Made by a program: the position numbers and the translations under genes. This document shows positions 23,267 to 62,090 of a stretch of DNA of 64,000 nt, in pieces. The notes under the pieces were generated by a model that made no database searches, was not told where the DNA came from, and saw only the letters and a list, made by a program, of their open reading frames with translations. This stretch comes from Deltaproteobacteria bacterium. GTDB lineage: Bacteria > Myxococcota_A > UBA9160 > UBA4427. How positions within the stretch are numbered: position 1 is the stretch's first letter; each line of letters begins with the position of its first letter. The DNA lies in contig JAJDAN010000033.1 of the NCBI GenBank assembly GCA_029261855.1, positions 62,001 to 126,000 on the forward strand, read 5' to 3'.

Positions 23267-27237
<3,971 letters not shown>

Positions 27238-27374
27238 CGATGGTTCCGCGACCGGGGGAGGGACGAGGAGTCTAGGAGAGCCCCCTACGCGCAGCAATCA
27301 CGCATGGAGACCGCGGCGTGCGCGGCTTCGCCGGCTATCTGCGGTCTGACGACCTTTGCGTCGTCGCCTGTTTC

Positions 27375-27393
27375 CCCAAGACTCCGTCCTGGG
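27375..27393 (-). repeat. Hairpin repeat beside M23 gene stop
   Basis: An 8-bp inverted repeat (CCCAAGAC, TCC loop, GTCCTGGG; one G-U pair) lies just after the stop of the M23 peptidase gene. On the gene strand it is followed by GGAAACAGGC. Similar units occur at 33288-33306 and 35957-35987, each within a few bases of a TAG stop. There is no U-tract, so this is not a textbook intrinsic terminator, though it may protect or end the transcript. Confidence 0.6.
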
Positions 27394-27400
27394 TCAGGCT

Positions 27401-28459
27401 CTAGTCGAAGATGTAGTTGAGGGGATCTCGGGCCTTGCCGTTGACGTGAATGGCGTAGTGCAGGTGCGGCCCGGTGCTGCGGCCGGTGCTGCCGATGGCC
27501 GCCACACGCTGGCCCCGCTCCACCGTATCGCCGACCTTCACGAAGACCTCCTTCGTGTGGCCGTAGAAGGTCTTGAGTCCGTAGCCGTGATCGATCACGA
27601 GGCTGTTGCCGAGCGGTCCGCGGCTGCCGACCGACGACACCCTACCCCGCGCCGGCGCCTGGATGGCCGTGCCCGCACGCGCCGCGATGTCGATGCCCGC
27701 GTGCAGCTGACGGCGACCGGTGAACGGTGAGACCCGCGCGCCGAAGCGCGACGTCAGCCAGCCCTTCGCCGGCCAGACCGACGGCATCGAGGCCAGCTTC
27801 TGGCTCTTCTCTTCCAGGGAACCGACGAGCAAGGTCAGCGAGTCGCCGCGCTCGCGGGCCTTTGCGGCGAGTACGTCTGCTGCGTCCGACAGCCTGGCGA
27901 CACGCCGGGCGCCGACGCTGGTGATGCCCTCGCGCTCCATCAGCTGCGGCGGCAGGCTGGGACCTTCGATCGGCCGGGTGTCGGGAGCGTGACGACTGAG
28001 CGGCCCGCGATCGATCGGGACACCCGCCGGCGGCATCAACTCGCCGTCCGCCGGGATCGCCATCTCATGGCTCGGGTCATAGCCCTGCTGGTAGCCCTGT
28101 TGATAGCCGCGGGGCAGCTCGGTGACGTCTTCGCCCCCGACCCCGGCGGCACCCGGGAGATTCGCGATGATGCGAACCTTGCGTTCCAGCTCGCGCACGT
28201 GCTGCAGCTTGGCGTCCGCCTGATGCAGCATCTGCTCGAAGCGCTGGATCTGCTCCCGCTGCTCCGCGACCTCGACACGCAGGTCGCCCAGCTCGCCGTT
28301 GCCCGCTCGCATCCGCGTGTAGTCCCACAGGCCGACCAACGCGATCAGCGTCATCACTGCGGTGCCGATGATCGCTCTCCGCACGGCCTTGCGCGGCACC
28401 TGGAAGCGCTTGACGGGTGCCGTGGCGTCCACCACGAGCATGATCGTGTAATGGTCCAT
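27401..28459 (-). CDS. M23-family (LytM-type) peptidase, membrane-anchored
   Basis: The 352-aa protein has an N-terminal cytoplasmic stretch, one membrane segment (AIIGTAVMTLIALVGLW), a periplasmic coiled coil of about 50 residues (VAEQREQIQRFEQMLHQADA), a proline/glycine linker with the repeat GYQQGYQQGYDP, and a C-terminal LytM domain. The zinc and catalytic residues look intact: GRRQLHAGIDIAARAG and STGPHLHYAIHVNG. It probably cuts peptidoglycan cross-bridges or, like NlpD/EnvC types, regulates amidases. It follows the FHA gene by 26 bases. Confidence 0.9.
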   Translation of the reverse strand: MDHYTIMLVVDATAPVKRFQVPRKAVRRAIIGTAVMTLIALVGLWDYTRMRAGNGELGDLRVEVAEQREQIQRFEQMLHQADAKLQHVRELERKVRIIANLPGAAGVGGEDVTELPRGYQQGYQQGYDPSHEMAIPADGELMPPAGVPIDRGPLSRHAPDTRPIEGPSLPPQLMEREGITSVGARRVARLSDAADVLAAKARERGDSLTLLVGSLEEKSQKLASMPSVWPAKGWLTSRFGARVSPFTGRRQLHAGIDIAARAGTAIQAPARGRVSSVGSRGPLGNSLVIDHGYGLKTFYGHTKEVFVKVGDTVERGQRVAAIGSTGRSTGPHLHYAIHVNGKARDPLNYIFD

Positions 28460-28485
28460 TGTCTACTCCGCCCCTCTCCGACGGC

Positions 28486-28830
28486 CTAACTGGGCAAGGT
28501 CACGGCGAGCGTGAGCTTGCCCATCTGGATGACGTCTCCGGTCTTCAGAGCCGTCCGTTGTACTTTCGCGCCGTTCACCATCGTTCCGTTCGTGCTCCCC
28601 AGGTCCTGCACGAAGAAGCCTTCCGTCGCGTAGCCCACGGCCGCATGTGCCCGGGAGATCGTCGGCTCGGCCAGGATCAGGTCCGCACTGCGACCCCGAC
28701 CGATGACCAACCAATCGCGATCCACACAGATCTCGAGCCCTTCGTAGAAGCCGCTCTTGATCAGCACCACCGCTCCCGGCGGTACCGATACCGGCGCGGC
28801 CGCCGGGCTGTTTGCTGCCCCTGCACTCAC
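28486..28830 (-). CDS. FHA-domain protein
   Basis: The 114-aa protein is essentially a single forkhead-associated domain after a short Ala/Pro lead. The phosphothreonine-binding motifs are visible: WLVIGRGRSADLILAEP, then ISRAHAAV and DLGSTNGTMVNG. It would bind a phosphothreonine protein, so a Ser/Thr kinase partner is expected elsewhere in the genome. It lies just upstream of the membrane-anchored M23 peptidase gene and is probably co-transcribed, hinting at phosphorylation-linked control of wall hydrolysis; that is inference. Confidence 0.9.
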   Translation of the reverse strand: MSAGAANSPAAAPVSVPPGAVVLIKSGFYEGLEICVDRDWLVIGRGRSADLILAEPTISRAHAAVGYATEGFFVQDLGSTNGTMVNGAKVQRTALKTGDVIQMGKLTLAVTLPS

Positions 28831-29001
28831 TGCGAACTCCTGGCCTCCAACACCTTGAAGATCGCCCGCCGGCCAAACCGGTCGGTGACGCGCGTCACAC
28901 CCGCAGCACTCGGGCGAGCGTCTCCAGGTATCAATCGGCCCCGAATCGGGAGCTCTTGACCCGGAAGTGCAGACGGGGCGCAGGCGGCCGCTGGAGAGCG
29001 G

Positions 29002-30732
29002 CTATGCGTTGCTCGAGGGGGTGTTGCCCCCCAGGAGTTCCGCTGCATGTCGACGGGTTGCGTCCGTGACGGATTCGCCGCCCGCCATGCGCGCGATCTC
29101 TTCGACCCGCTCGTCGCCTTCGATCCGTTCGACGAACGCCTCGGTCTGGCCCTTGCGATCCCGCTTGTGGACCCGGAAGTGCACCTCTCCCAGGGCGGCG
29201 ATCTGCGGCAGGTGGGTGATGCACAGAACCTGGTGGTGCTTCGAGAGCTCGGCCAGGGACCGCCCCACCCGCTCGGCCACGCGACCGCCGATACCCGCAT
29301 CGACCTCGTCGAAGACCAGCACCATGCCGCCGCCCGACCGGCGCAGCGCGTTGCGGACGGCCAGGAAGACCCGGGACAACTCTCCACCGGAAGCCACCCA
29401 ACGCAGCGGTCGGGTAGGCTCGCCGGCGTTGGCGGAGAAACGGAACTCCGCGCGTTCGCTCCCCGACGGTCCGCAGGGCAAACCCTCGGGCGGATCGGCC
29501 CGGTCCAGGGCGACCTCGAAGCGCGCACCGGGCATGGCCAGAGCCGCAAGCGCCGTCTCGACGGCCTTCGCGAGCTTGCGCGCGCTCTTCGCGCGTCCCT
29601 TCGACAACGCTGCGGCGCGCTCGGTCAAGGCCTCCGCGCGTTTCCGGCGCTCGGCGGCCAACGCGTCGATACTTGCGTCGGCGCCGGCAAGCGACGCCAG
29701 CTCGGTCGCCAGCGCGTCGCGTGATGCCCGGATGACGTCCTCGGTCTGGCCGTACTTGCGCTGCAGTTTCTGGATGGCCGCGATGCGGTCTTCCACGAAG
29801 GCCAGCTGCGCGGGATCCGCGTCGATCCGTCCGAGGTAGCGTTCCAGATCGCGCCCGGCTTCGAACAGCTCGGCTTCCTGGGCGCGCAGCCGTTCGGCCA
29901 GGCCCGTGAGCTGCGGATCGAGACCCGCGAGGGCGTCGATCCGCCGTGCGGCCTCCGACACGCGGTCGACGGCATTTGGAGCCTCGTCGCTTCCCTCGGA
30001 ATCACCGACGAGCGCCGTGCAGGCGTTGCGGCCCTCCTCGAGCAGTCGATCCGCATGTGCGAGCCGGGCATGGCTGGACTCGAGCTCTTCGATCTCGCCC
30101 GCCTCGAGGGCGACATCGTCGATTTCCTGCAGCTGGAAGGCCAGGAAATCCTGGCGTCGGGCGCGCTCTTCCGCAGCGGCCCGCAGCTTGACGAGATCGC
30201 CGTCGAGGGCGCGCAGCGCCGCGACCTCCGCTGCCACCTCGCCCCGCAAGTCCAACAGGCCGCCCGACTCGTCGAGCAGCCGACTCTGGACATCCGGACG
30301 CAACAGGGTCTGTGAGCTGTGTTGACTCGAGATTTCGATGCGGTCGGCGAACAGCTCGGCCAGGGTCGCCGCCGGCACCAGCTCGCCCGCGACCCGCACG
30401 CGGCTGCGCGCCCCCCCGCCTTCCGAACGACCGCGCGTCAGGGTCCGCTGCACGGCCAGCGCATGGTCGTCGACGGGCAGCTCCCGACGCGCCAGCTCGG
30501 CTTCGACCTCGGGCCAGGCCTCGGTGTCGAAGACCGCCTCGACGACGGCGCGGTCGGTCCCGGTCCGAACCGCGTCCGACGAGCCGCGGCCACCCGCCAG
30601 CAGCGACAGCGCGCCGAGCACGATCGACTTGCCCGTGCCCGTCTCGCCCGTCAGGACGTTCAAGCCCGGCCCGAGTGCCAGCTCGGCCTCGGCGACGATC
30701 ACCCAACTCTCGATGCGGAGCGACTCGATCAA
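29002..30732 (-). CDS. recN: DNA repair protein RecN
   Basis: RecN is an SMC-like ATPase acting at double-strand breaks. The 576-aa protein begins LIESLRIESWVIVAEAELAL, has Walker A LTGETGTGKSIVLGAL near residue 30, a central coiled coil, the signature RWVASGGELSRVFLAVRNAL and Walker B MVLVFDEVDAGIGGRVAE. The start is a TTG overlapping the NAD kinase stop (TTGA); no ATG or GTG is available near the conserved N-terminus. The nadK-recN pairing is common. Confidence 0.95.
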   Translation of the reverse strand: MIESLRIESWVIVAEAELALGPGLNVLTGETGTGKSIVLGALSLLAGGRGSSDAVRTGTDRAVVEAVFDTEAWPEVEAELARRELPVDDHALAVQRTLTRGRSEGGGARSRVRVAGELVPAATLAELFADRIEISSQHSSQTLLRPDVQSRLLDESGGLLDLRGEVAAEVAALRALDGDLVKLRAAAEERARRQDFLAFQLQEIDDVALEAGEIEELESSHARLAHADRLLEEGRNACTALVGDSEGSDEAPNAVDRVSEAARRIDALAGLDPQLTGLAERLRAQEAELFEAGRDLERYLGRIDADPAQLAFVEDRIAAIQKLQRKYGQTEDVIRASRDALATELASLAGADASIDALAAERRKRAEALTERAAALSKGRAKSARKLAKAVETALAALAMPGARFEVALDRADPPEGLPCGPSGSERAEFRFSANAGEPTRPLRWVASGGELSRVFLAVRNALRRSGGGMVLVFDEVDAGIGGRVAERVGRSLAELSKHHQVLCITHLPQIAALGEVHFRVHKRDRKGQTEAFVERIEGDERVEEIARMAGGESVTDATRRHAAELLGGNTPSSNA

Positions 30733-31586
30733 CGATCGCCCCAGCGCAGCTTTCGCTGCAGGATCTGGAAGCGCGTCCGGAGCGGCGAAGCAATGATGTC
30801 GACTGGATGAGGAGCCCGGCGCATCACCACACGATCGCCCTCCTCCACGTCCATGCCTTCCTGTCCGTCCATGGTGATCGTCGCCTCGCCGCCCCGGGTC
30901 TGGACGACGACCTCGATCTCGACGCCCACCGGCAGCACCAGCGGACGGTGATTGAGGGAATGCGGACAGATCGGCGTCAGTACGATCGCCTCGAGGCCGG
31001 GTAGCAGCAGCGGGCCGCCGGCGGACAGCGAGTACGCGGTCGAGCCCGTCGGCGTGCTGACGATCAGACCGTCGGCGTGGTAGGTGGTCACCGCCTGCCC
31101 GTCCGCGAAGGTCTCGAGATCGATCATCCGGGACAGCGCCGTCTTCGTGATGACTGCGTCGTTGAGTGCCAGGAAGCGGCCGCGTTCGACTCCGTCCCGG
31201 GAGACGATGACCTCCAGGCGCATGCGCGACGAGACTTCGGCCTTTCCGGCCAGGACGGTCTCGAGGGCCGAGAACATCTCTTCGACGTTGACTTCGGTCA
31301 GGAAGCCCAGGGTCCCGAGGTTCACGCCAAGGATGGGAACCCGGTGACTCCCCGTTCCGCGCGCGACGGCCAACAGGGTTCCGTCGCCGCCGAGGGACAC
31401 GATCAGGTCGACCTCCGCCGCCAGGCTGCCGATGTCCTCCGCGGGCAAGTCCACGAGGCGTGCGCACTCGGCGTCGCCACGCGCGCGAATCCCGCGATCC
31501 CCGAGCCACTTCACGAGCTCTCGGACCGTCTTCGCCGCTTGCGGCTGTCCGGGCTTCAGGCAGATGCCGACGGACTGGATGACCAA
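30729..31586 (-). CDS. nadK: NAD kinase
   Basis: NadK makes NADP+ from NAD+. The catalytic GGDGT occurs in DLIVSLGGDGTLLAVARG, followed by ILGVNLGTLGFL, FLALNDAVITK, the substrate stretch YHADGLIVSTPTGSTAYSLS and HSLNHRPLVLP. I use a TTG at 31586 (VIQSVGICLKPG) with AGAGGAG seven bases upstream, which gives 285 aa; an ATG at 31610 in a repetitive GAGAGATGAGAG tract would add eight residues. Its stop overlaps recN. Confidence 0.95.
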   Translation of the reverse strand: MVIQSVGICLKPGQPQAAKTVRELVKWLGDRGIRARGDAECARLVDLPAEDIGSLAAEVDLIVSLGGDGTLLAVARGTGSHRVPILGVNLGTLGFLTEVNVEEMFSALETVLAGKAEVSSRMRLEVIVSRDGVERGRFLALNDAVITKTALSRMIDLETFADGQAVTTYHADGLIVSTPTGSTAYSLSAGGPLLLPGLEAIVLTPICPHSLNHRPLVLPVGVEIEVVVQTRGGEATITMDGQEGMDVEEGDRVVMRRAPHPVDIIASPLRTRFQILQRKLRWGDR

Positions 31587-31911
31587 ACGCACTCTCCTCT
31601 CATCTCTCATCTCTCGTCTGTCGGGGCCCGGCTGCCCTCGCCGAACCGCCCGATGATAACCGGCCCGGGCTGCGTCGACGCACTGCTAGCCCTGATCCGT
31701 CGTGCGGATCCGGGCGCGACCCCAATTCGCGTCCGGAATCGCGCGACGCTCCGTCTCGCGCGGCGATTTGGCTCTTGGCAGTCAGGCTCACCGGTGCGAG
31801 GTTGTCGCGCTCTCAACGAGAACCACCCCGGGAAGCGGGATCCGCAGGGTTCAGCAGCAGCCCAGCAAGCGCTGTGCCACGACACTGACGGATTGGGGCT
31901 AGCATCGTGCC
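31587..31911. other. Divergent intergenic region between nadK and rarA
   Basis: These 325 bases separate the leftward nadK-recN unit from rightward rarA and should hold both promoters. A possible weak -10 (TAGCAT) lies about ten bases before the rarA ATG. On the nadK side there is a GA-rich tract (repeated GAGAGATGAGAG pattern on the minus strand). I see no convincing coding sequence, RNA gene or strong -35 element. Confidence 0.5.
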
Positions 31912-33276
31912 ATGTCGCGCGATCGTGCGAGTGACTCGATGGAGCTGTTCCCCGAACGGCCGAAACGCCGCGTCGACCCGCGCGCTCCCCTGGCCGACCG
32001 CATGCGTCCGCGCAGCTTCGAGGAAATGCTGGGGCAGGGACAGCTGACCGCCGAGGGCAGTGCCCTGCGTGCCATGGTCGCGTCCGGGGAGATGCCATCC
32101 CTGATCCTCTGGGGGCCCCCGGGTAGCGGCAAGACGACCCTCGCCTGGATCCTGGCCGATCAACCGGATTGCCGGATGGAGCCCCTGTCCGCCGTCACCT
32201 CGGGCGTGAAGGACATCCGCGAGGCGGTCGAACGTGCGCGACGGGTCGGACTTCGCACGATCCTCTTCATCGACGAGATCCACCGTTTGAACCGGGCACA
32301 GCAGGACGTGCTGCTTCCCCACGTCGAAGCGGGCACGGTGACCCTGGTCGGCGCCACGACGGAGAACCCCTCGTTCACGGTGAACGCTCCCCTGCTCTCC
32401 CGCTGTCGGGTGTTGACCTTGCGCCCACTCGAAGACGAGGCACTGGTCGGTCTCGTCGAACGGGCGGTCGCCGACCCGGATCGAGGCCTCGGCCGGTCGG
32501 GGCTGCGGCTCGGCGACGGCAGTATCGGCGCCATGGTTCAGGCGGCGGACGGTGATGCACGCCGCGCCCTCGGGCTGCTGGAGGCCGCCGCCGCCGTGCA
32601 CCGTCAGGGACCGCACGCGAACGACCCGCTGTCTCCCGAGACCATCCGCGAAGCCGCGGGCCGTCGCCTGTTGCTTCACGACCGGGACCGCGAAGAACAC
32701 TTCAACGTCGTGTCGGCCTTCATCAAGAGCCTGCGCGCGAGCGACCCCGACGCTTCCCTGTACTACCTCGCGCGCATGCTCGAGGCGGGGGAAGACCCGT
32801 TGTACCCGGCGCGGAGGCTGGTCGTCTTCGCATCCGAAGACATCGGCAACGCCGATCCCACCGCACTCCAGGTGGCCGTCGCCACCTACCAGGCCGTCGA
32901 GCGGATCGGCATGCCCGAGGCTCGTATCCCCCTCGCCCAGGCCACCACCCATCTCGCGTGCGCGCCCAAGAGCAACGCAGCCTACAAGGCCCTGGGCCGT
33001 GCCTACGAAGCCCTGCGCGAGACCGGGTCGGCGGCAGTCCCGATGCACCTGCGCAACGCCCCGACATCGCTCATGAAGGACCTCGGTTACGGGGCAGACT
33101 ACCGCTACCCCCACGACGAGCAGGACGCCTTCGTCGACGCCGAGAACCTGCCCGAAGCCCTTGCGGGCCGGCGCTTCTACGAGCCGACGGACCGTGGCAA
33201 CGAACGCGAGATCGCGGAGGCCCTGGAAGCAAGGCGACGCCGACGCACTTCGACGAGCGACGCGCCCGACAGCTAG
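31912..33276 (+). CDS. rarA: Replication-associated recombination ATPase RarA (MgsA)
   Basis: RarA is a clamp-loader-like AAA+ ATPase that acts at stalled forks. The 454-aa protein has Walker A LILWGPPGSGKTTLAW (residues 68-75 for the P-loop), Walker B TILFIDEIHRLNRAQQD, sensor-1 GATTENPSF, and the family C-terminus with HFNVVSAFIKSLRASDPDA, RRLVVFASEDIGNADP and the LMKDLGYGADYRYPHD block. It is the only rightward gene between 1 and 36 kb and converges on the GGDEF gene, sharing a hairpin repeat in the 38-base gap. Confidence 0.95.
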   Translation: MSRDRASDSMELFPERPKRRVDPRAPLADRMRPRSFEEMLGQGQLTAEGSALRAMVASGEMPSLILWGPPGSGKTTLAWILADQPDCRMEPLSAVTSGVKDIREAVERARRVGLRTILFIDEIHRLNRAQQDVLLPHVEAGTVTLVGATTENPSFTVNAPLLSRCRVLTLRPLEDEALVGLVERAVADPDRGLGRSGLRLGDGSIGAMVQAADGDARRALGLLEAAAAVHRQGPHANDPLSPETIREAAGRRLLLHDRDREEHFNVVSAFIKSLRASDPDASLYYLARMLEAGEDPLYPARRLVVFASEDIGNADPTALQVAVATYQAVERIGMPEARIPLAQATTHLACAPKSNAAYKALGRAYEALRETGSAAVPMHLRNAPTSLMKDLGYGADYRYPHDEQDAFVDAENLPEALAGRRFYEPTDRGNEREIAEALEARRRRRTSTSDAPDS

Positions 33277-33287
33277 GAGCCTGTTTC

Positions 33288-33306
33288 CCCAAGACGCAGT
33301 CTTGGG
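33288..33306. repeat. Perfect hairpin repeat between convergent genes
   Basis: A perfect 8-bp stem (CCCAAGAC, GCA loop, GTCTTGGG) sits in the 38-base gap between the rarA and GGDEF gene stops, both TAG. The surrounding bases (GCCTGTTTCC before, TCGGCCTCCTAG after) match the unit at 27375. It may serve as a shared bidirectional terminator, although no T-tract follows on either strand. Confidence 0.65.
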
Positions 33307-33314
33307 TCGGCCTC

Positions 33315-34241
33315 CTAGGAAGCGGCCTCATCGATCACTTCCACGCGGTTGCGCCCCTTCTCCTTGGCCCGGTAGAGCGCCGCGTCGGCCGCCGCGACGA
33401 GATCGTCGGGGGACTTCATCTCGGGCCGGTACTGCGCGACCCCGATGCTGACGCGCGACTGCACGGGCGCATCGACTCCGGCCTCGAAGGCCCCGGCCTC
33501 GACCTCGTGGCGCCAGCGCTCGGCGAGGACGCGCGCCCCTTCGAGATCACTCTGGGACAAGACCGCGAGAAACTCCTCTCCGCCATAGCGACCGATGACG
33601 TCCGTCTTGCGAAGCTCTCGGAGCAGGACCGAGGACACGCCGCGGAGCACGCGGTCCCCCGCCGGATGTCCCCAGGTGTCGTTGACGTCCTTGAAATGAT
33701 CGATGTCCACCATCATCACGCACAGCGGCGAGGCGTAGCGGCGCGCACGCAGGAATTCGATGGCGAGTACTTCGTGGACGTAGCGTCGCGTCCGCAAGCC
33801 CGTCAGCACATCGGTCGTCGAGAGACGCGCGAGCGTCTCGTTCTTCACGCGCAGCTCGTCCTGCAGGCGCTTGACCTTGAGATGCAGACGAAGCCGCGCG
33901 ACCAGCTCTCCCGGATGGAAGGGCTTCAGCACGAGGTCCGCGGCGCCCTGCTCGAGCAAGCGCACCCGACGGTCCAGGTCCTGCGAGCCGGTCAGGAACA
34001 CGAAGGGAACCTGGCGACTGGCGGGCATCGCCTCCTTGACGCGCAGGATCTTCTCTCCGTCGATGCCGGGCATCTCGAGGTCGCACAGGACCACGTCCAC
34101 GGAACCGTCGAGCAGGACCTTCAGACCGCGGATCCCGTCTTCGGCCTCGATGACGTTCTCGAAGACCCGGGACTCGGCAACCGCCCGCGCAATCTGCGCG
34201 CGGTGCACCGCCGAGTCGTCGATGATGAGCAGGGTCGCCAA
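33315..34241 (-). CDS. Receiver-GGDEF diguanylate cyclase (PleD/WspR type)
   Basis: The 308-aa protein has an N-terminal response-regulator receiver (acidic IIDDS, phospho-acceptor Asp54 in VVLCDLEMPG, and Lys in LVLKPFHPGE) and a C-terminal GGDEF domain. The active site is GGEEF at 220 to 224, and an allosteric inhibitory I-site RKTD lies at 211 to 214, the right spacing. It should make cyclic di-GMP when phosphorylated, with product inhibition. The start is a TTG at 34241 with GGAG seven bases upstream. No histidine kinase gene is adjacent. Confidence 0.93.
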   Translation of the reverse strand: MATLLIIDDSAVHRAQIARAVAESRVFENVIEAEDGIRGLKVLLDGSVDVVLCDLEMPGIDGEKILRVKEAMPASRQVPFVFLTGSQDLDRRVRLLEQGAADLVLKPFHPGELVARLRLHLKVKRLQDELRVKNETLARLSTTDVLTGLRTRRYVHEVLAIEFLRARRYASPLCVMMVDIDHFKDVNDTWGHPAGDRVLRGVSSVLLRELRKTDVIGRYGGEEFLAVLSQSDLEGARVLAERWRHEVEAGAFEAGVDAPVQSRVSIGVAQYRPEMKSPDDLVAAADAALYRAKEKGRNRVEVIDEAAS

Positions 34242-34402
34242 GGAACTTCTCCGCCTGATCCGCTACGGGGGGTATCGGCGGAACACCGCGCCGGCTTGCG
34301 GGTCCGGGGACCGGCAGGCGAGCGGCAGTCTCCAAGCAAGACTGGGGGCACGACGAGATGAGGCAAGACCAGCGAAGGCAAGGCGAGCCGACGGATCCCC
34401 GT

Positions 34403-34564
34403 CAGGCGGCCAGCTGCATCAGCCCCGTGAGGCTCCCGCCCATGATCTGGGCCCGGTCTGCCAGGGGCAGGCCCGCCAGCTCGTCAACGAAGCTCACCGG
34501 GTCGCCTTCGCCAGTGCAGGTTGTCGAGCACCTCGGACCACGACACCTGGGTCGAGACGTCCAT
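34403..34564 (-). pseudogene. Possible C-terminal remnant of an amidohydrolase-like gene
   Basis: Two short frames on the minus strand read together like the end of a protein: MDVSTQVSWSEVLDNLH, then after a one-base shift GEGDPVSFVDELAGLP and RAQIMGGSLTGLMQLAA before a stop. The style (a DEL.GLP.ADRA.IMGG end) resembles C-termini of amidohydrolase-2-type enzymes. No upstream body of such a gene exists, since the DUF2254 gene ends exactly here (TGATG). It could be a decayed remnant or chance. The remaining bases up to 34242 hold the Shine-Dalgarno of the GGDEF gene and nothing else I recognise. Confidence 0.3.
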
Positions 34565-35928
34565 CAGGCGGTCCCTCCTTCCGGGATTGCAGCTGCGCCG
34601 AGGGCCACGCGAACCCGCTCGTACGCCGCCGCGACCCGGGCGCGGTCGCGGTCCGACCGGCGCTCGCGCGAACGTTCGAAGGCGGCGTGGATCTCGCGAG
34701 CGTGCTCTTGGAGGACTTCGCGACGAGACGCGTCCGCAGCTCCTTCGACCCCCGCAGCAACGGCCCGGAGTAGCGCGCTCGCCACCTGTGGGTCATCCGC
34801 GCCGTAGAGCCGGATGGAATCCAAGCAGCTCGACACGATGTCGTCGAAGCGCGTCGGCGCGACGACGACGCGCAGCACGTCGGCGTCGTCGAAGCGCCGG
34901 CCAGACGGAAAGCTCCGCGGCGCGAGCCGTGCGATCAGGCTGCCCAGGCGATGGATGCATTCGACGGCGGTCTTGGGGTCATTGACGCCCGGCGACAGCG
35001 CGCGCACGGCCATCTCCGAGAGCTGCTCGACCAGGAAGCCGACATCCTGGACCGGCGTGCGGTGGTCTCCGAGGATGCAGCAGCCGCGCAACGCGGCTGC
35101 CACCTCGTCGGTCACCTTGGCCGCGGGCGCAACCCGCGCAATCCGCGATCCCTCACCGACGAACTCTCCCGGACACGCGTCCATCCAGATCAACAGGTCA
35201 TGCTCGCAGGCGAGCGCGAGGGTCGCCTCGTCGTCGAGAATGCGAACGTACCCCTCCCCCGCCGAGAAGATCTCCCGGACCTCCTCGCCGAGAGCGGCGA
35301 GCCGCTCCTCGTCCCCGTGGTCCGAGCCCGCCGCTCGCTCTTTCCCCAGCGCTTCCGGGAAGAGCACCGGAATCTGCTCGCGGATCTCGCAGGCCACCGC
35401 GGCGATCACGCTCGAGGCCTGCAGCGAGTTCGCGGTGTGATGGATGAAGAAGATCAGGACGAACAGGCTGACGACCGCGAGTAATACCGCACCGGCCGTC
35501 GCCACATAGGGGACGCGGTCGGGAGACCCCACGGCCCGCAGCACCAACAGGCTGTAGAAGAAGGTCGACAGGAAGGTCCCGAGCGCAAACTGACTCGAGC
35601 GGTCCCGGAAGAAGGTCCGCAGCAGACGCGGACCGAACTGCGAAGACGTCAGGGTCAGCGCCACGACCGTGATCGAGAAGACCACACCGGTCACCGTCAT
35701 CATCGAGCCGGCGATGGTCGAGAGCACGGCGCGCGCGCCGTCCGCACTGACCCCGGTCAGCCAGGGCATCGCGAGGACGCCCTCGAGTGGCACACGCCGG
35801 TCGAACTCGATGGTCGCCAGTGCCAACGCGCCCGAGAGCACCGCCATCTGCGCCGGGAAGAACCAGTAGCTGCCGCGCAGCGCATCCCACCGGTCGAGCA
35901 GGTACCCGTACCATCGCCGGGGATTCAT
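34564..35928 (-). CDS. DUF2254 family membrane protein
   Basis: The 454-aa protein has about four N-terminal membrane segments (from YWFFPAQMAVLSGALALA to AVLLAVVSLFVLIFFIHH) with the conserved tract MMTVTGVVFSITVVALTLTS and FGPRLLRTFFRD, followed by a large soluble domain with VRALSPGVNDPKTAVECIHRLG. These are the marks of DUF2254, a predicted inner-membrane family with no established function. The ATG at 35928 has GGAGG four bases upstream. It is downstream of the small lipoprotein and DUF1328 genes and may form an envelope-related unit with them. Confidence 0.85.
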   Translation of the reverse strand: MNPRRWYGYLLDRWDALRGSYWFFPAQMAVLSGALALATIEFDRRVPLEGVLAMPWLTGVSADGARAVLSTIAGSMMTVTGVVFSITVVALTLTSSQFGPRLLRTFFRDRSSQFALGTFLSTFFYSLLVLRAVGSPDRVPYVATAGAVLLAVVSLFVLIFFIHHTANSLQASSVIAAVACEIREQIPVLFPEALGKERAAGSDHGDEERLAALGEEVREIFSAGEGYVRILDDEATLALACEHDLLIWMDACPGEFVGEGSRIARVAPAAKVTDEVAAALRGCCILGDHRTPVQDVGFLVEQLSEMAVRALSPGVNDPKTAVECIHRLGSLIARLAPRSFPSGRRFDDADVLRVVVAPTRFDDIVSSCLDSIRLYGADDPQVASALLRAVAAGVEGAADASRREVLQEHAREIHAAFERSRERRSDRDRARVAAAYERVRVALGAAAIPEGGTA

Positions 35929-35956
35929 GAAGCCTCCGGGCGCAAGCCCGCCAGGG

Positions 35957-35987
35957 GCCCGACCCAAGACTTCGTCTCGGGTCGGGC
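35957..35987. repeat. 14-bp hairpin repeat
   Basis: Arms of 14 bp (GCCCGACCCAAGAC and GTCTCGGGTCGGGC, one mismatch) flank a TTC loop between the small lipoprotein stop (TAG at 35990) and the DUF2254 start. It is a longer version of the units at 27375 and 33288, sharing CCCAAGAC and the trailing GGCTCCTAG. Its place inside a predicted operon suggests RNA processing or partial termination rather than a final terminator. Confidence 0.6.
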
Positions 35988-35989
35988 TC

Positions 35990-36211
35990 CTAGCTGTGGT
36001 CGTCGATCTCGTCCTCGACCGCTTCCTTGGCGTCCTTCGCCTCGTCTTCCACCTCTTCCACGAACTCGTCCATCGGGCTGCGCTCCTCGCAGGCAGTCAG
36101 CGAGAACGCCCCCCCAGCGAGGAGGACTGCCCCCAGGATCCGCACAGCGGCTCCTCGCGAGGCGCGAAGTCGAACGCGATGCAATACGGAACCGATCTTC
36201 GTGAGACTCAT
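35990..36211 (-). CDS. Small acidic lipoprotein
   Basis: The 73-aa product starts MSLTKIGSVLHRVRLRASRG, has a hydrophobic segment and a lipobox-like end FSLTACEE, so it is probably lipidated at that Cys. The mature part is about 30 residues and strongly acidic (DEFVEEVEDEAKDAKEAVED). GGAGG lies eight bases before the ATG. It is 41 bases downstream of the DUF1328 gene. Such tiny lipoproteins often accompany stress-related membrane proteins. No function is assigned. Confidence 0.75.
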   Translation of the reverse strand: MSLTKIGSVLHRVRLRASRGAAVRILGAVLLAGGAFSLTACEERSPMDEFVEEVEDEAKDAKEAVEDEIDDHS

Positions 36212-36252
36212 GTGCGTTTCCTCCCTTGTGATCATTCGGTGGCGCGGTTCGT

Positions 36253-36426
36253 TCAAGCGGGCGACTGGCCACGCAGCGCGCGCGCAACCGCCGACACCAC
36301 CATCAGCACGAGGAAGACGACGAACAGGACCCACGCGATGTTGGCGGAAGCACCAGCAAGTCCGGAGAACCCGAGCAAGCCAGCAACCAGTGCCAGAACC
36401 AGAAATGTCAGTGCCCAACCAAGCAT
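36253..36426 (-). CDS. DUF1328 (YtjA-like) small membrane protein
   Basis: The 57-aa protein [20 protein letters not shown]... has two membrane segments separated by [11 protein letters not shown], matching the E. coli YtjA/DUF1328 pattern (W near the start, LGF.GLAG). AGGAGG lies eight bases upstream of the ATG. These proteins are widespread and often stress-induced, but no molecular role is established. It leads the short leftward run DUF1328, lipoprotein, DUF2254. Confidence 0.88.
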
Positions 36427-36626
36427 TGAGTTGACCTCCTGGGAGCGTCGAGTGCACGCAACGTGCCAGGTACGGGGCAGCCGTCACGACCGCCTCGACG
36501 TCTGCGGGACTCCAAGGAGCGGACGTTTGTAGAAGCTACACACGCGGCGGGAGCCTGGAGGCCCTGTCGCCGCGCGGTGCTGGCATGCCGCTTGCTCACT
36601 CGGTCCACCTGGAGGCCCGAGCAGAC

Positions 36627-36776
36627 ATGCACAAGCCACCCATCGGTGATCCCCGACATCGGCCGGAACGCGAGCTCCCGCCGCGCGAGCCCGACGACGC
36701 ACCGGTAGAAGACCCGCGGCCTGATCCGAAGCCGGTGGAGTTGCCGCCGGACCCCGACGAGCCGAGCCGGAAGTAG
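36627..36776 (+). CDS. Small proline-rich acidic protein, tentative
   Basis: A 49-codon frame reads MHKPPIGDPRHRPEREL, then alternates Pro, Asp, Glu and Arg to the end (VELPPDPDEPSRK). The composition resembles short Pro-rich hypothetical proteins found beside stress genes in proteobacteria. A GGAGG is present 11 bases upstream, rather far. It may be real, but its size and composition in GC-rich DNA leave room for chance. Confidence 0.4.
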   Translation: MHKPPIGDPRHRPERELPPREPDDAPVEDPRPDPKPVELPPDPDEPSRK

Positions 36777-36907
36777 CCGTTGGAGCCTCGCAACGACGAA
36801 GGAGGGATCGACATCCCCGGCTCTGCATCCGAAGCGGCCGCGCAAGCTGCTGACAGCTTGATCGCGACCGTGCACTCAACTAGCGGCGGGTCGAACGAAG
36901 GGCCACG

Positions 36908-36984
36908 TGGCGGGGCGGACGGGACTCGAACCCGCAACTTCTGGCGTGACAGGCCAGTGCTCTAACCAATTGAACTACCGCCCC
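36908..36984 (-). tRNA. tRNA-Asp (GTC)
   Basis: The cloverleaf folds with acceptor GGGGCGG/CCGCCCC, G at position 73, anticodon GTC in CTGTCAC, and T-loop GGTTCGAGTCC. The 3' CCA is encoded. Upstream on the minus strand there is a weak ATTTTA that could be a -10. It lies about 190 bases downstream of tRNA-Val on the same strand, with a repeat-rich spacer between. Confidence 0.95.
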
Positions 36985-37070
36985 GGCAGCCCTTGGGGGC
37001 CGGTAAAATGCCCGAGATTCCCGGGCTCGCAAGCCCCTGCCCCCAATTGAGGCAGGCAGGCCACGGAAGA

Positions 37071-37171
37071 GCGCCTGCGGCCCAGCAAGTCGCGCCGCGA
37101 AGCGGCCCGCGCTTGCGAAAAGCGCCCGCGGCTCAGCGAGTCGCGCCGCGGAGCGGCCCGACTCGCGAAAA
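37071..37171. repeat. Tandem pair of ~50-bp hairpin repeats between tRNA-Asp and tRNA-Val
   Basis: Copy 1 (37071-37121) and copy 2 (37122-37171) share over 80% identity, and each folds into a hairpin ending GCGAAAA. The stem base changes in a matched way: GCAAG with CTTGC in copy 1, GCGAG with CTCGC in copy 2. Copy 2 forms GCGAGTCG.GCCGC / GCGGC.CGACTCGC around a GGA loop. The first 22 bases of copy 1 recur exactly, inverted, at 43981-44002 beside tRNA-Lys. Compensatory change suggests that the fold matters. Confidence 0.75.
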
Positions 37172-37172
37172 G

Positions 37173-37249
37173 TGGTGGGCGTGCACGGATTCGAACCGCG
37201 GACCCTCTCGGTGTAAACGAGATGCTCTAACCAACTGAGCTACACGCCC
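37173..37249 (-). tRNA. tRNA-Val (TAC)
   Basis: Acceptor GGGCGTG/CACGCCC, D-arm TAGCTCAGTTGGTTAGAGC, anticodon TAC in the loop TTTACAC, T-loop GGTTCGAATCC, A73 and an encoded CCA. Repeat copy 2 ends two bases after its 3' end, and another hairpin repeat lies about 50 bases upstream. Confidence 0.95.
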
Positions 37250-37299
37250 GCAGAGCCTTCAGCGAGAACCAGACCCCCCAACCCAGAGCCCTCAGCCCA

Positions 37300-37330
37300 G
37301 CAAGTTCGGCAGCTCCGCTGCCGGACTTGC
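37300..37330. repeat. 14-bp hairpin repeat between tRNA-Val and lon
   Basis: Arms GCAAGTTCGGCAGC and GCTGCCGGACTTGC pair over 14 bp (one G-U) around TCC. It is preceded by GCCCA and followed by GGAAACAGGC and a second TGCCGGACTTGCTG. The GCCCAGCAAGT lead matches the tRNA-linked repeats and the GGAAACAGGC tail matches the stop-linked hairpins, so it joins the two groups. It lies just after the lon stop and may act as its terminator. Confidence 0.65.
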
Positions 37331-37357
37331 GGAAACAGGCTGCCGGACTTGCTGAAA

Positions 37358-39862
37358 CTAGTTCACGCCCGCCGGGTGAGCGACGTCCGTCTCCTGCGCG
37401 CGGTGCGGCGGGAGCGGCAGGTCGTAGATGTCGTCGAGGTCGTGGAAGCCCTCTCGGAAGAATGCCGTGGGATCGTCCAGGGCCAGTGCCGTCGCCAGCA
37501 CCTCGTCCATGTGGTCGACCAGGACGATCTCGAGGGACTTCTTGATCAGCGCCGGCAAGTCCTTGAGATCCTTCTCGTTCTCTCTCGGGATGATGACCTT
37601 GCTGACGCCACCGCGGTGCGCGGCGATCAGCTTCTCCTTGAGACCGCCGATGGGCAGCACGCGGCCGCGCAAGGTGATCTCACCCGTCATGCCGATGTTC
37701 GCCCGGATCGGGACCCGGGTGAGCGCAGACGCGATGGTCGTCGCCAGGGTAATGCCCGCGGACGGCCCGTCCTTGGGCGTACCGCCTTCGGGCACATGGA
37801 TGTGGATGTCGACATTCGAGTAGAAGTCGCGCTTGAGGCCCAACTGCTTGGCGCGTGAGCGGATGTAGGACATGGCCGCACCGGCGGATTCCTGCATCAC
37901 CTCACCCAGGCGCCCGGTCAGCTGCAGCTTGCCCTTGCCCGGTGTCACCGCGACCTCGGTCTGCAGCAACTCGCCGCCGACCTCGGTGTAGGCGAGTCCG
38001 GTGCAGACTCCGACCTTGTCCTCGTCTTCCGTCGTCCCGAAGCGGTACTTCTGGACGCCGAGGTACTTCTTGACGAGCTTGGGCGTGATCCGCGTGATCT
38101 TCTCGACGCCACCGTCCTCGCTCCGGTCGGTCACGACCTTGCGGGCAACCTTGCGGCAGATCGAGGCCAGCTCTCGTTCGAGGCTTCGCACACCCGACTC
38201 CCGGGTGTAGAAGCGGATCACGTCGAGCAGCGCCGAATCGCTGTACTCGATCTGCTCGGCGTTGAGGCCATTGGCTTCGACGACCTTCGGCACCAGGTGC
38301 TTCTTGGCGATCTGGAGCTTCTCGGGCTCGATGTAGCCCGGGATCTGGATGATCTCCATGCGGTCCTGGAGCGGCCGCGGGATCTCGTGCAGGGTGTTGG
38401 CGGTGCAGATGAACAGGATCTTCGACAGGTCGTAGTCGAGGTCCATGTAGTGGTCGTTGAACGTGTGGTTCTGCTCCGGATCGAGCACCTCGAGCAACGC
38501 CGAGGAGGGATCCCCGCGGAAGTCCATCGACATCTTGTCGATCTCGTCCAGCAGGAAGACCGGATTGCTCGAGCCCGCCTTCTTGAGACTCTGCAGGATC
38601 TTGCCGGGCATCGCGCCGATGTAGGTGCGGCGATGACCGCGGATCTCGGCCTCGTCGCGCACTCCACCGAGACTCATGCGGACGAAGTCCCGCCCCGTGG
38701 AACGGGCAACGGACTTGCCGAGTGACGTCTTGCCGACGCCGGGCGGGCCGACGAGGCAGAGGATCGGGCCCTTCATGCGGTCGACCAGGGACTGCACGGC
38801 GAGATACTCGAGGATGCGATCCTTCGGCTTCTCGAGCCCGTGGTGGTCGGCGTCGAGAACGCCCTGGGCCACCTTCAGGTCGATGTGCTCTTCGCGCTCC
38901 TCGTTCCAGGGAAGCGCCAGGATCCAATCGATGTAGTTGCGGACGACCGTCGCCTCGGCGCTCATGGGCGACATCATCTTGAGCTTCTTCAGCTCCTTCT
39001 CGCCCCGCTCCCGCGCGGGGTCCGGCATTTCCTTGGCGGCGAGCTGCTCTTCGAGCTCCTGGATCTCATTCTTGAACTCGTCGCGGTCACCGAGTTCCTT
39101 CTGGATCGCCCGCATCTGCTCGTTGAGGTAGTACTCCTTCTGCGAGCGCTCCATCTGCTTCTTGACGCGACCGCGGATCTTGCGCTCGACCTCGAGCACC
39201 TCGATCTCGGCCTGCATGCGGCCGTAGACCTCTCGCAGGCGATCGAGCGGAGCCAGGATCTCGAGGATGGACTGTCGCTCTTCGAGCTTGAGATTCAGGT
39301 GCGAGACGATCGTGTCCGCGAGCTTCCCCACTTCCTGGATGGAGGTGATGGTGTTGAGCAGTTCCGGCGGGACCTTCTTGTTCAGCTTGACGTAGCTCTC
39401 GAAGCCGCCGTGGATGGACCGGATGAGGGCGTCCGCCTCGGTGCTGTCGTCGGCGGCGTCGGGCAGCTCATCGATGACGCACTGGAAGTACGGGTCGTCT
39501 GTCGCAAATTCGCGGATGCGCGCCCGGCACTTGCCTTCGACCAGCACCTTGACGGTGCCGTCGGGCAGGCGCAGCAGCTGGATGATCGTTCCGAGGGTGC
39601 CGATCTCGTAGATGTCGTCGGCGGTGGGCTCGTCCTGACCGGCCTGGCGCTGGGCGGACAGCATCAACTCTCGATTGCCGGCGACGGCATCCTCGAGGGC
39701 CTGGATCGACTTCGCGCGCCCCACGAAGAGGGGGACCACGTGATTCGGGAAGACGACGATGTCTCGCAGGGGCAGCAGCGGAACCAGGCGATCCGCGTCC
39801 GCGGCCGTCACCTCACCGTTCTCGCTCGCTTCCTGCTCGTCGTCGTTCCTGAAGAAGACCAT
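37358..39862 (-). CDS. lon: ATP-dependent protease Lon
   Basis: Lon degrades misfolded and regulatory proteins. The 834-aa chain has the N-terminal substrate-binding domain ([23 protein letters not shown]), the AAA+ module with [17 protein letters not shown] and [16 protein letters not shown], and the Ser/Lys protease domain with [12 protein letters not shown] (Ser701) and [13 protein letters not shown] (Lys744). It is the final gene of a tig-clpP-clpX-lon run, 37 bases after clpX, so all four proteostasis genes are probably co-transcribed. Confidence 0.98.
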
Positions 39863-61511: not shown

Positions 61512-62090
61512 CTATTCCCGCCATCCGGCGGGGACGCCGGCGAGGTCCGCCTCCACGTGCAGCACCCGCAGTCGCCGCTCGGCTGCCTCGATCTCCTCGC
61601 GCTGGGCCTTCATGTCCTGGCGCAGCCGAATGCTCAGCGGGGAGGTTTGCGGGTCATTGCTGCCCGGAGCCGAGACCTGCCACGCCGACGACGACTCGGA
61701 CACCTTGTCGAGTTCTGCATTGAGCTGGACGAGCTTCTTCTTGGCGCTCTCGAAGTCCTTCCGGGCCGTCTCGAAGCGCGTCGTCCACTCGCTTCGGGTC
61801 GCCCCGCCCCGGCGCTCCACGTCCGAGCTGAACCCCTGCGGGAGGCGCAGCAGGTCGTCGAGTTCGACGTTCCGCGGCGGCGGCTCCTCGGGCTGCTGGA
61901 CGGGAACCAGGACCTCGCCCTGCGCCTCTCCCACGACATCTCCCGGCTGGGAGTCCGGCGTGGCCTTCGGCTTCGGCGGCTCGCCCTCGGTGCCGGCCCA
62001 CGCGAGCGGGGCTGTCAGCAGCAGAGCTGCGGTCAGCCAGACCCACGCCCCGACCCATCGTCGGTCCCCACTCGAAGCGCGTCCGGCCAT
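61512..62090 (-). CDS. Exported coiled-coil protein of unknown function
   Basis: The 192-aa protein has a signal peptide (WVGAWVWLTAALLLTAPLAWA), a proline-rich linker (EEPPPRNVELDDLL) and a predicted coiled coil (FETARKDFESAKKKLVQLNA, later RQDMKAQREEIEAAERRLR). No known domain is evident. It is divergent from the pilT-family gene across 153 bases, so a role in envelope or pilus assembly is possible but not shown. Confidence 0.65.
   Translation of the reverse strand: MAGRASSGDRRWVGAWVWLTAALLLTAPLAWAGTEGEPPKPKATPDSQPGDVVGEAQGEVLVPVQQPEEPPPRNVELDDLLRLPQGFSSDVERRGGATRSEWTTRFETARKDFESAKKKLVQLNAELDKVSESSSAWQVSAPGSNDPQTSPLSIRLRQDMKAQREEIEAAERRLRVLHVEADLAGVPAGWRE

Follow-up and report, generated by a model that had tools for sequence, protein, structure and literature searches.

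What places hairpins of one kind directly at TAG stop codons? The question arises from a 64,000-nucleotide stretch of DNA (hereafter the window; positions 62,001 to 126,000 of contig JAJDAN010000033.1, assembly GCA_029261855.1) from a Deltaproteobacteria bacterium of the Myxococcota_A. Here three CCCAAGAC-type stems, starting at 27375, 33288, and 35963, each lie 7–11 bases from a TAG stop. An earlier note had described three such stems about 10 bases from their stops, and the stems are real, although the third had been placed at 35957. The note had also suspected that the repeat includes the stop codon. This is so for the copies at stops, where the terminal CTAG of the repeat contains the TAG; 14 of the 52 clusters of copies that we analyzed in this genome lie away from any stop. 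We favor, as a probable but far from certain explanation, that the copies are a small non-coding, non-autonomous mobile double-hairpin repeat whose insertion at CTAG-like sites leaves intact the stop of one flanking gene or the stops of both. The window holds three units.

27335..27404, minus strand: two-hairpin element adjoining a Peptidase_M23 gene, with CTAG at 27401-27404 whose TAG is the stop of that gene; hairpin 1 at about 27366-27399 and hairpin 2 at about 27348-27365; the distal end (27335-27338) reads CTAT, a decayed CTAG
33273..33318, no strand assigned: single-hairpin element with convergent genes on either side, with CTAG at 33273-33276 and CTAG at 33315-33318
35937..35993, minus strand: third element, with CTAG at 35990-35993 whose TAG is the stop of a 73-aa lipoprotein-like open reading frame (ORF); hairpin 1 at 35951-35993 and, by folding, a second hairpin at 35937-35950; the model match ends at 35943

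The second hairpins of the first and third units, which lie partly outside the span of the earlier note, had not been described. In the third element, located between the end of the lipoprotein-like ORF and a DUF2254 gene, the distal CTAG is not recognizable. Both ends of the single-hairpin form read CTAGGAG, and it holds two stops, at 33274-33276 (plus strand, MgsA-type AAA ATPase) and 33315-33317 (minus strand, response regulator-GGDEF). A covariance model of the family, built from copies elsewhere, recovered the same borders for the three units (the third only to 35943) at E values of 1.6e-5, 1.5e-4, and 5e-4, with the next-best match in the window at E 0.39.

These units belong to a sizable family. 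The 6.96-Mb genome holding the window (G000) has 38 instances of the core CCCAAGAC-N3-7-GTCTTGGG, vs. none for a reversed-pattern control. For 29 of the 38 cores, one side has a CTAG no more than 16 nt away and the other side has one no more than 75 nt away; for 7 more, only one of the two is present. A full unit consists of CTAG, hairpin 1, a linker with GCAA, hairpin 2, and CTAG. In G000 it spans about 65–89 bp, with full-length classes of about 65–72, 74–78, and 89 bp; shorter matches are partial or single-hairpin forms. Halves have been swapped between length classes (for example, at L096 5050). We collected 68 distinct elements from G000, 12 from 800 kb of systematic stretches, 3 from the window, and 53 from loci selected for the core or for GGAAACAGGC, the tail motif, so most G000 rates given below describe copies at loci chosen for one of these motifs. 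Where both ends were readable, the borders read CTA..TAG with an outer C and G in 42 of 44 G000 elements (of the 68) and in all 21 such elements (of 26) from a second genome, G033.

All 16 copies chosen for folding, which come from eight genomes, adopt the two-hairpin fold; hairpin 2, with a stem of 7–9 bp, usually sits on a 2x2 mismatch above a GC/GC foot, and this mismatch was seen under the stem in 13 of the 16. The two hairpins of one unit differ from each other in sequence. In a structural alignment of 11 diverse copies, 96.3% of cells were paired, and changes on both sides of a pair occurred in 8 of 26 pairs, vs. 4.3 in shuffles. The stems thus differ between genomes yet keep pairing.

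How the copies are distributed speaks to their origin. Five identical 76-bp copies with unrelated flanks are present in G000; one of them ends a P-II gene and another, 1.6 kb away, lies between two Hsp20 genes. Among the copies listed for other genomes, identical copies in unrelated flanks were again found, five of 75 bp in G033 and three of 67 bp in G057. Neighboring copies in tandem arrays have a single CTAG in common, and a terminal CTAG is likewise common to the element and a different CTAG-bounded element of 216–217 bp at L087, L089, and L009 (at the last, only the start was seen). With genes called by our own codon-usage script, not a standard gene caller, none of the 68 G000 elements and none of the 26 from G033 lay inside a called gene, and 1 of 20 did so in G057. 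The repeat has thus spread as a self-contained unit bordered by CTAG and stays out of genes. In the congener G001 (same genus), the DNA at three orthologous sites has no element and falls short of the G000 sequence by approximately the size of the missing copy or copies. The junction between the MgsA and GGDEF genes also lacks the element in G001, and a related two-hairpin copy stands there in G004, a member of another genus (L173 4397-4459); this pattern reflects either independent insertion or loss.

The enrichment next to stops that the earlier note had proposed to look for genome-wide was found. When the 68 elements were joined into 52 clusters, an edge lay within 8 nt of a facing stop in 38 of 52, vs. 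7.7% of random non-coding points, and within 8 nt of a start in 1 of 52, vs. 8.4%. By source, a stop was abutted by 5 of the 9 clusters from systematic stretches (p = 3e-4), by all 3 from the window, and by 30 of the 40 from motif-fetched loci. Counting single elements, an end falls on a TAG stop in 37 of 65 in G000 (both ends in 2), 14 of 20 in G057 (both ends in 2), and 22 of 26 in G033, where 12 elements do so at both ends and thereby end both convergent genes. In most of the copies listed for G057, the gene-distal CTAG has decayed, often to CCAG or CTGG, and the CTAG serving as a stop is kept. The setting is also biased, with 27 of 44 classifiable clusters between convergent genes vs. 104 of 734 intergenic gaps (p = 7e-12). 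Of the other classifiable clusters, 15 lie between tandem and 2 between divergent genes; 8 of the 52 were close to locus edges and were left out of these classes.

Such an arrangement could mean that the hairpins are primarily bidirectional terminators or 3'-end structures, which selection has retained and multiplied where genes end, mobility playing only a small part. The convergent excess, the 12 G033 copies that end two genes, and the strength of the hairpins (z −3.0 to −9.0 in the seven elements folded) speak for this explanation, and a strong hairpin right after a stop codon, often between convergent genes, is indeed what an intrinsic terminator looks like. However, the elements differ from intrinsic terminators in usually having two hairpins, in being dispersed copies, and in lacking a U-tract. 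On the last point the earlier note was right for the three window units: a terminator scan of 27000-38000 gave 4 sites vs. 3.9 in shuffles, none at these hairpins. Identical copies, unrelated flanks, and CTAG borders resemble insertion instead, and copies are missing at the G001 gene ends examined. The convergent excess is itself partly explained by the fact that 55 of 134 genes with a CTAG stop face a convergent neighbor anyway. We regard a primary role in termination as unlikely. The copies nonetheless provide a related set of sites for asking whether hairpins without a U-tract end or stabilize transcripts in high-GC Myxococcota.

Much of the linkage follows from the CTAG ends. The observed/expected ratio of this tetranucleotide is 0.30 in G000, an approximately threefold depletion. 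Among 284 CTAG sites in 864 kb, 118 form one stop, 8 form two stops, 44 lie within genes, and 114 are intergenic, element ends included; stops thus make up 126 of 240 non-coding CTAGs (52.5%). About half of the copies of any CTAG-bordered repeat that stays outside genes can therefore be expected at stops. An element that has a CTAG on each side also lets both stops of a convergent pair overlapping in one CTAG survive, and part of the convergent excess arises because CTAG-stop genes often already have a convergent neighbor. The CTAG ends explain most of the stop linkage without a dedicated function, although the repeats may still have one.

In the explanation we favor, the unit would be moved into CTAG-like sites by an enzyme that recognizes hairpins and acts in trans, closest in kind to an HUH/Y1 transposase of the REP or IS200 type, with CTAG left at each end. 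Insertion at a CTAG stop would keep the stop of the upstream gene, and also that of a convergent gene. Copies would then survive at gene 3' ends because CTAG is rare and about half of non-coding CTAGs are TAG stops. The hairpins would come to form the 3'-end region of the mRNA, where they may stabilize it, hinder convergent read-through, or affect termination. A mobile repeat whose ends double as stop codons could in this way enter the narrowest place in a compact genome, between convergent genes, and break neither.

Several observations weigh against this explanation. The proportion of clusters at stops (38/52) exceeds the 52.5% expected from CTAG alone (p = 0.002), and CTAG targeting may be an incomplete account; the 5/9 of the systematic stretches taken alone is not clearly above that expectation. 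At least one end does not look intact in 24 of the 68 G000 elements. No exact empty site could be fixed by comparing the window sites and the loci L102, L296, and L097 with G001 and other genomes, because divergence of the intergenic DNA obscures the exact target. For genes ended by an element, 6 of the 7 stops readable in G001 are TGA, and a pre-existing CTAG thus lacks support. A mobilizing gene is also elusive: in G000, PF01797 (Y1) had no matches even at E ≤ 10 and a RAYT-like query had none, in searches aimed at Y1 and not at DDE transposases and in an assembly that is 98.6% complete, so that a Y1 gene could be missed. RAYT-like Y1 genes are present in G033, G057, and G047, but the approximately one kilobase around them holds no match to the element model. 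The co-occurrence of RAYT-like genes and elements, 3 of 7 vs. 4 of 36 among genomes classed by hand, is not significant (p = 0.07).

The TGA codons of G001 invite another explanation, in which the element itself supplies the stop. A TAG-hairpins-CTAG cassette would be inserted at gene ends (C|TGA) by a hairpin-recognizing system, turning TGA into TAG and giving convergent genes a two-way 3'-end structure. Stops were compared with G001 as follows, with bare numbers being window positions.

TAG stops at an element, TGA in G001: 27401, 33276, L102 5028, L296 3954, L097 4959, L097 6350
TAG stop at an element, TAG in G001: 33315
TAG stops at an element, unreadable: L102 798 (not alignable to its end) and L097 5028 (gene without a match)
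Element-free TAG stops, TAG in G001: 28486, 29002, 39900, L296 2198
Element-free TAG stops, TGA in G001: 37358, L102 2413, L102 3036, L296 4130, L296 6313
Element-free TAG stops, unreadable: L102 192 and two L097 genes without a match

Each of the six TGA codons of G001 is no more than two codons from the corresponding position, and the DNA past the element at the P-II site aligns gap-free to G001 if the whole TAG-X-CTAG is counted as the insert; both results support a supplied stop. However, element-free TAG stops also correspond to TGA in 5 of 9 readable cases, and the contrast is not significant; a p of 0.06 from a selected subset (6 vs. 6) is not reliable. We think it improbable that the element brings the stop with it. 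If it did, the repeat would be a mobile stop-plus-terminator module instead of a CTAG-targeting parasite.

Returning to insertion at CTAG-like sites, the next consideration is which known system, if any, the repeat belongs to. REP sequences are short extragenic palindromes with a foot tetranucleotide, a stem mismatch, and a paired or tandem layout (in part PMC8266576). Y1 enzymes cut REP and IS200/IS605-type ends as single strands (in part PMC8266576). The repeat has the geometry of such ends, with its palindromes on both sides, foot tetranucleotide, stem mismatch, and lack of terminal inverted repeats. The copies could be true REPINs moved by a RAYT, that is, two head-to-head REP-like hairpins with CTAG replacing the usual GTAG. 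They share with REP/REPIN (BIME) systems the conserved tetranucleotide at the outer foot of each hairpin, the mismatch near the foot of hairpin 2 (13/16), paired and tandem copies, and an extragenic location in many copies (0/68 in genes; 38 perfect cores). To the RAYT-like genes of G033, G057, and G047 can be added a remnant in G001 (L321, G001:C30), whose RAYT-like frame is broken by one internal TAG. Other features fit poorly. The foot is CTAG instead of GTAG (in 42/44 and 21/21 of the readable G000 and G033 elements), the two hairpins of an element are dissimilar, and element borders are often stop codons. Neither PF01797 nor the RAYT-like query found a RAYT-like gene in G000, G004, or G059, and the RAYT-like genes that exist have no elements beside them. 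The Stenotrophomonas maltophilia TnpA_REP is reported to cleave less when GTAG is replaced by CTAG (PMC8266576). True REPINs are, in our judgment, a doubtful fit. RAYT was also considered as the central gene of the family and was rejected, as the Y1 and RAYT-like searches and the Y1 loci yielded no linked gene.

A DDE transposase (IS630- or IS5-like) duplicating TA or CTAG could also have moved the copies as miniature inverted-repeat transposable elements (MITEs). TA with a flanking C and G at both ends would fit, since IS630 prefers TA in CTAG (Tenzen and Ohtsubo 1991, as cited in PMC2170065) and MITEPsy1 duplicates CTAG or YTAA (PMC3189936). Like MITEPsy1 and other CTAG-targeting MITEs, the element is about 100 bp long with a 4-nt CTAG on both sides, and a second CTAG-bounded element with real inverted repeats occurs in the same genome. 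However, what the two ends of the double-hairpin repeat have in common is limited to about CTAGSWG, and the repeat has nothing like the 16-nt terminal inverted repeat of the other element. The terminal inverted repeats of a DDE-transposon MITE are thus missing, and we consider this origin quite unlikely. The second element, a 217-bp CTAG-bounded unit with 16-nt inverted ends (CTAGCCC[T/C][G/A]ATCCGTC), lies in the window at 31686-31902 and is absent in G001 and G003, which retain CTAG at its right border. The fetched G000 DNA contained four more complete copies of this family, each 216 bp long, together with a 75-bp form, and related copies occur in G001.

The PATEs of Haloquadratum walsbyi provide a third comparison. 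These IS605-related elements lack terminal inverted repeats, have a palindrome close to each end, are too short to hold a transposase gene, and are described without target duplication (PMC3119063). Our element resembles them in its palindromes, in lacking terminal inverted repeats, and in being too short for a transposase gene, and is unlike them in having CTAG at both ends; no related IS200/IS605 element was found in the Y1 searches. Keyword searches of titles and abstracts in the open-licence PMC literature returned no description of the family, and Rfam 15 covariance models applied to 27000-38000 of the window (E ≤ 1) matched two tRNAs only, leaving the elements unmatched. Because for each system a defining feature was absent or not clearly seen, we file the element as a REP/PATE kind of mobile palindromic repeat, formally a member of none. 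The family also gives a setting in which to ask how REP-like repeats move when the genome has no recognizable RAYT.

The family is not confined to G000. At E ≤ 1e-4, and among the best candidates per genome (79 at most), the covariance model had matches in 7 of 60 genomes: 55 in G000, 62 in G033, 75 in G057, 22 in G047, 7 in G001, 5 in G059, and 2 in G004. These whole-genome figures are matches and not copy numbers, as some elements match on both strands. Across the phylum, with at most 12 candidates scored in each of 377 genomes, matches came from 10, all members of the order to which G000 belongs. Copies were inspected from G001, G004, G033, G047, G057, and G059, and not from G280, G317, or G352; overall, copies in different genomes are 63–82% identical. 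An exact-pattern scan of a collection of named genomes returned 59 stretches, nearly all of them from Myxococcota metagenome-assembled genomes (MAGs). One full-length copy was found outside the phylum, in the gammaproteobacterial MAG SG8_30 (L277 2964-3029, 43 bits). Pattern matches in PRO3 and Prado149 had only a weak model match (E 0.02 and 0.01), and for those in Shinella and a Burkholderiales MAG the covariance model found nothing.

The genes ended by the window units are as follows.

27401..28459, minus strand: Peptidase_M23 gene, with its TAG stop (27401-27403) within the terminal CTAG of the first element
31939..33276, plus strand: MgsA-type AAA+ ATPase gene, ending in the left CTAG of the 33273 element
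33315..34241, minus strand: response regulator-GGDEF gene, ending in the right CTAG of the 33273 element
35990..36211, minus strand: small lipoprotein-like ORF of 73 aa (lipobox recognized by eye), with its TAG stop (35990-35992) within the CTAG of the third element

The flanks that had been described as shared among the three units are so in part. GCCTGTTTCC is present at 27366 and 33279 only and not in the third unit, and the other flank of the first unit reads GGCTCTAG, not GGCTCCTAG. A hairpin at 37300 had been linked to the family through its GGAAACAGGC tail, a motif that falls within a family element at 12 of its 22 places genome-wide. The tail is there, but the hairpin was rejected as a member, as neither the sequence profiles nor the structural model matched it at E ≤ 1. 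It belongs with other hairpins that carry GAAA tails and form a set of their own at 37050-37360, by tRNA-Asp and tRNA-Val. Elsewhere in G000, at L066 300-3000 (G000:C32), direct repeats about 533 bp apart carry GCGCCTTGTTAGAC and TATAACGG motifs and may represent an integron cassette array, which they resemble.

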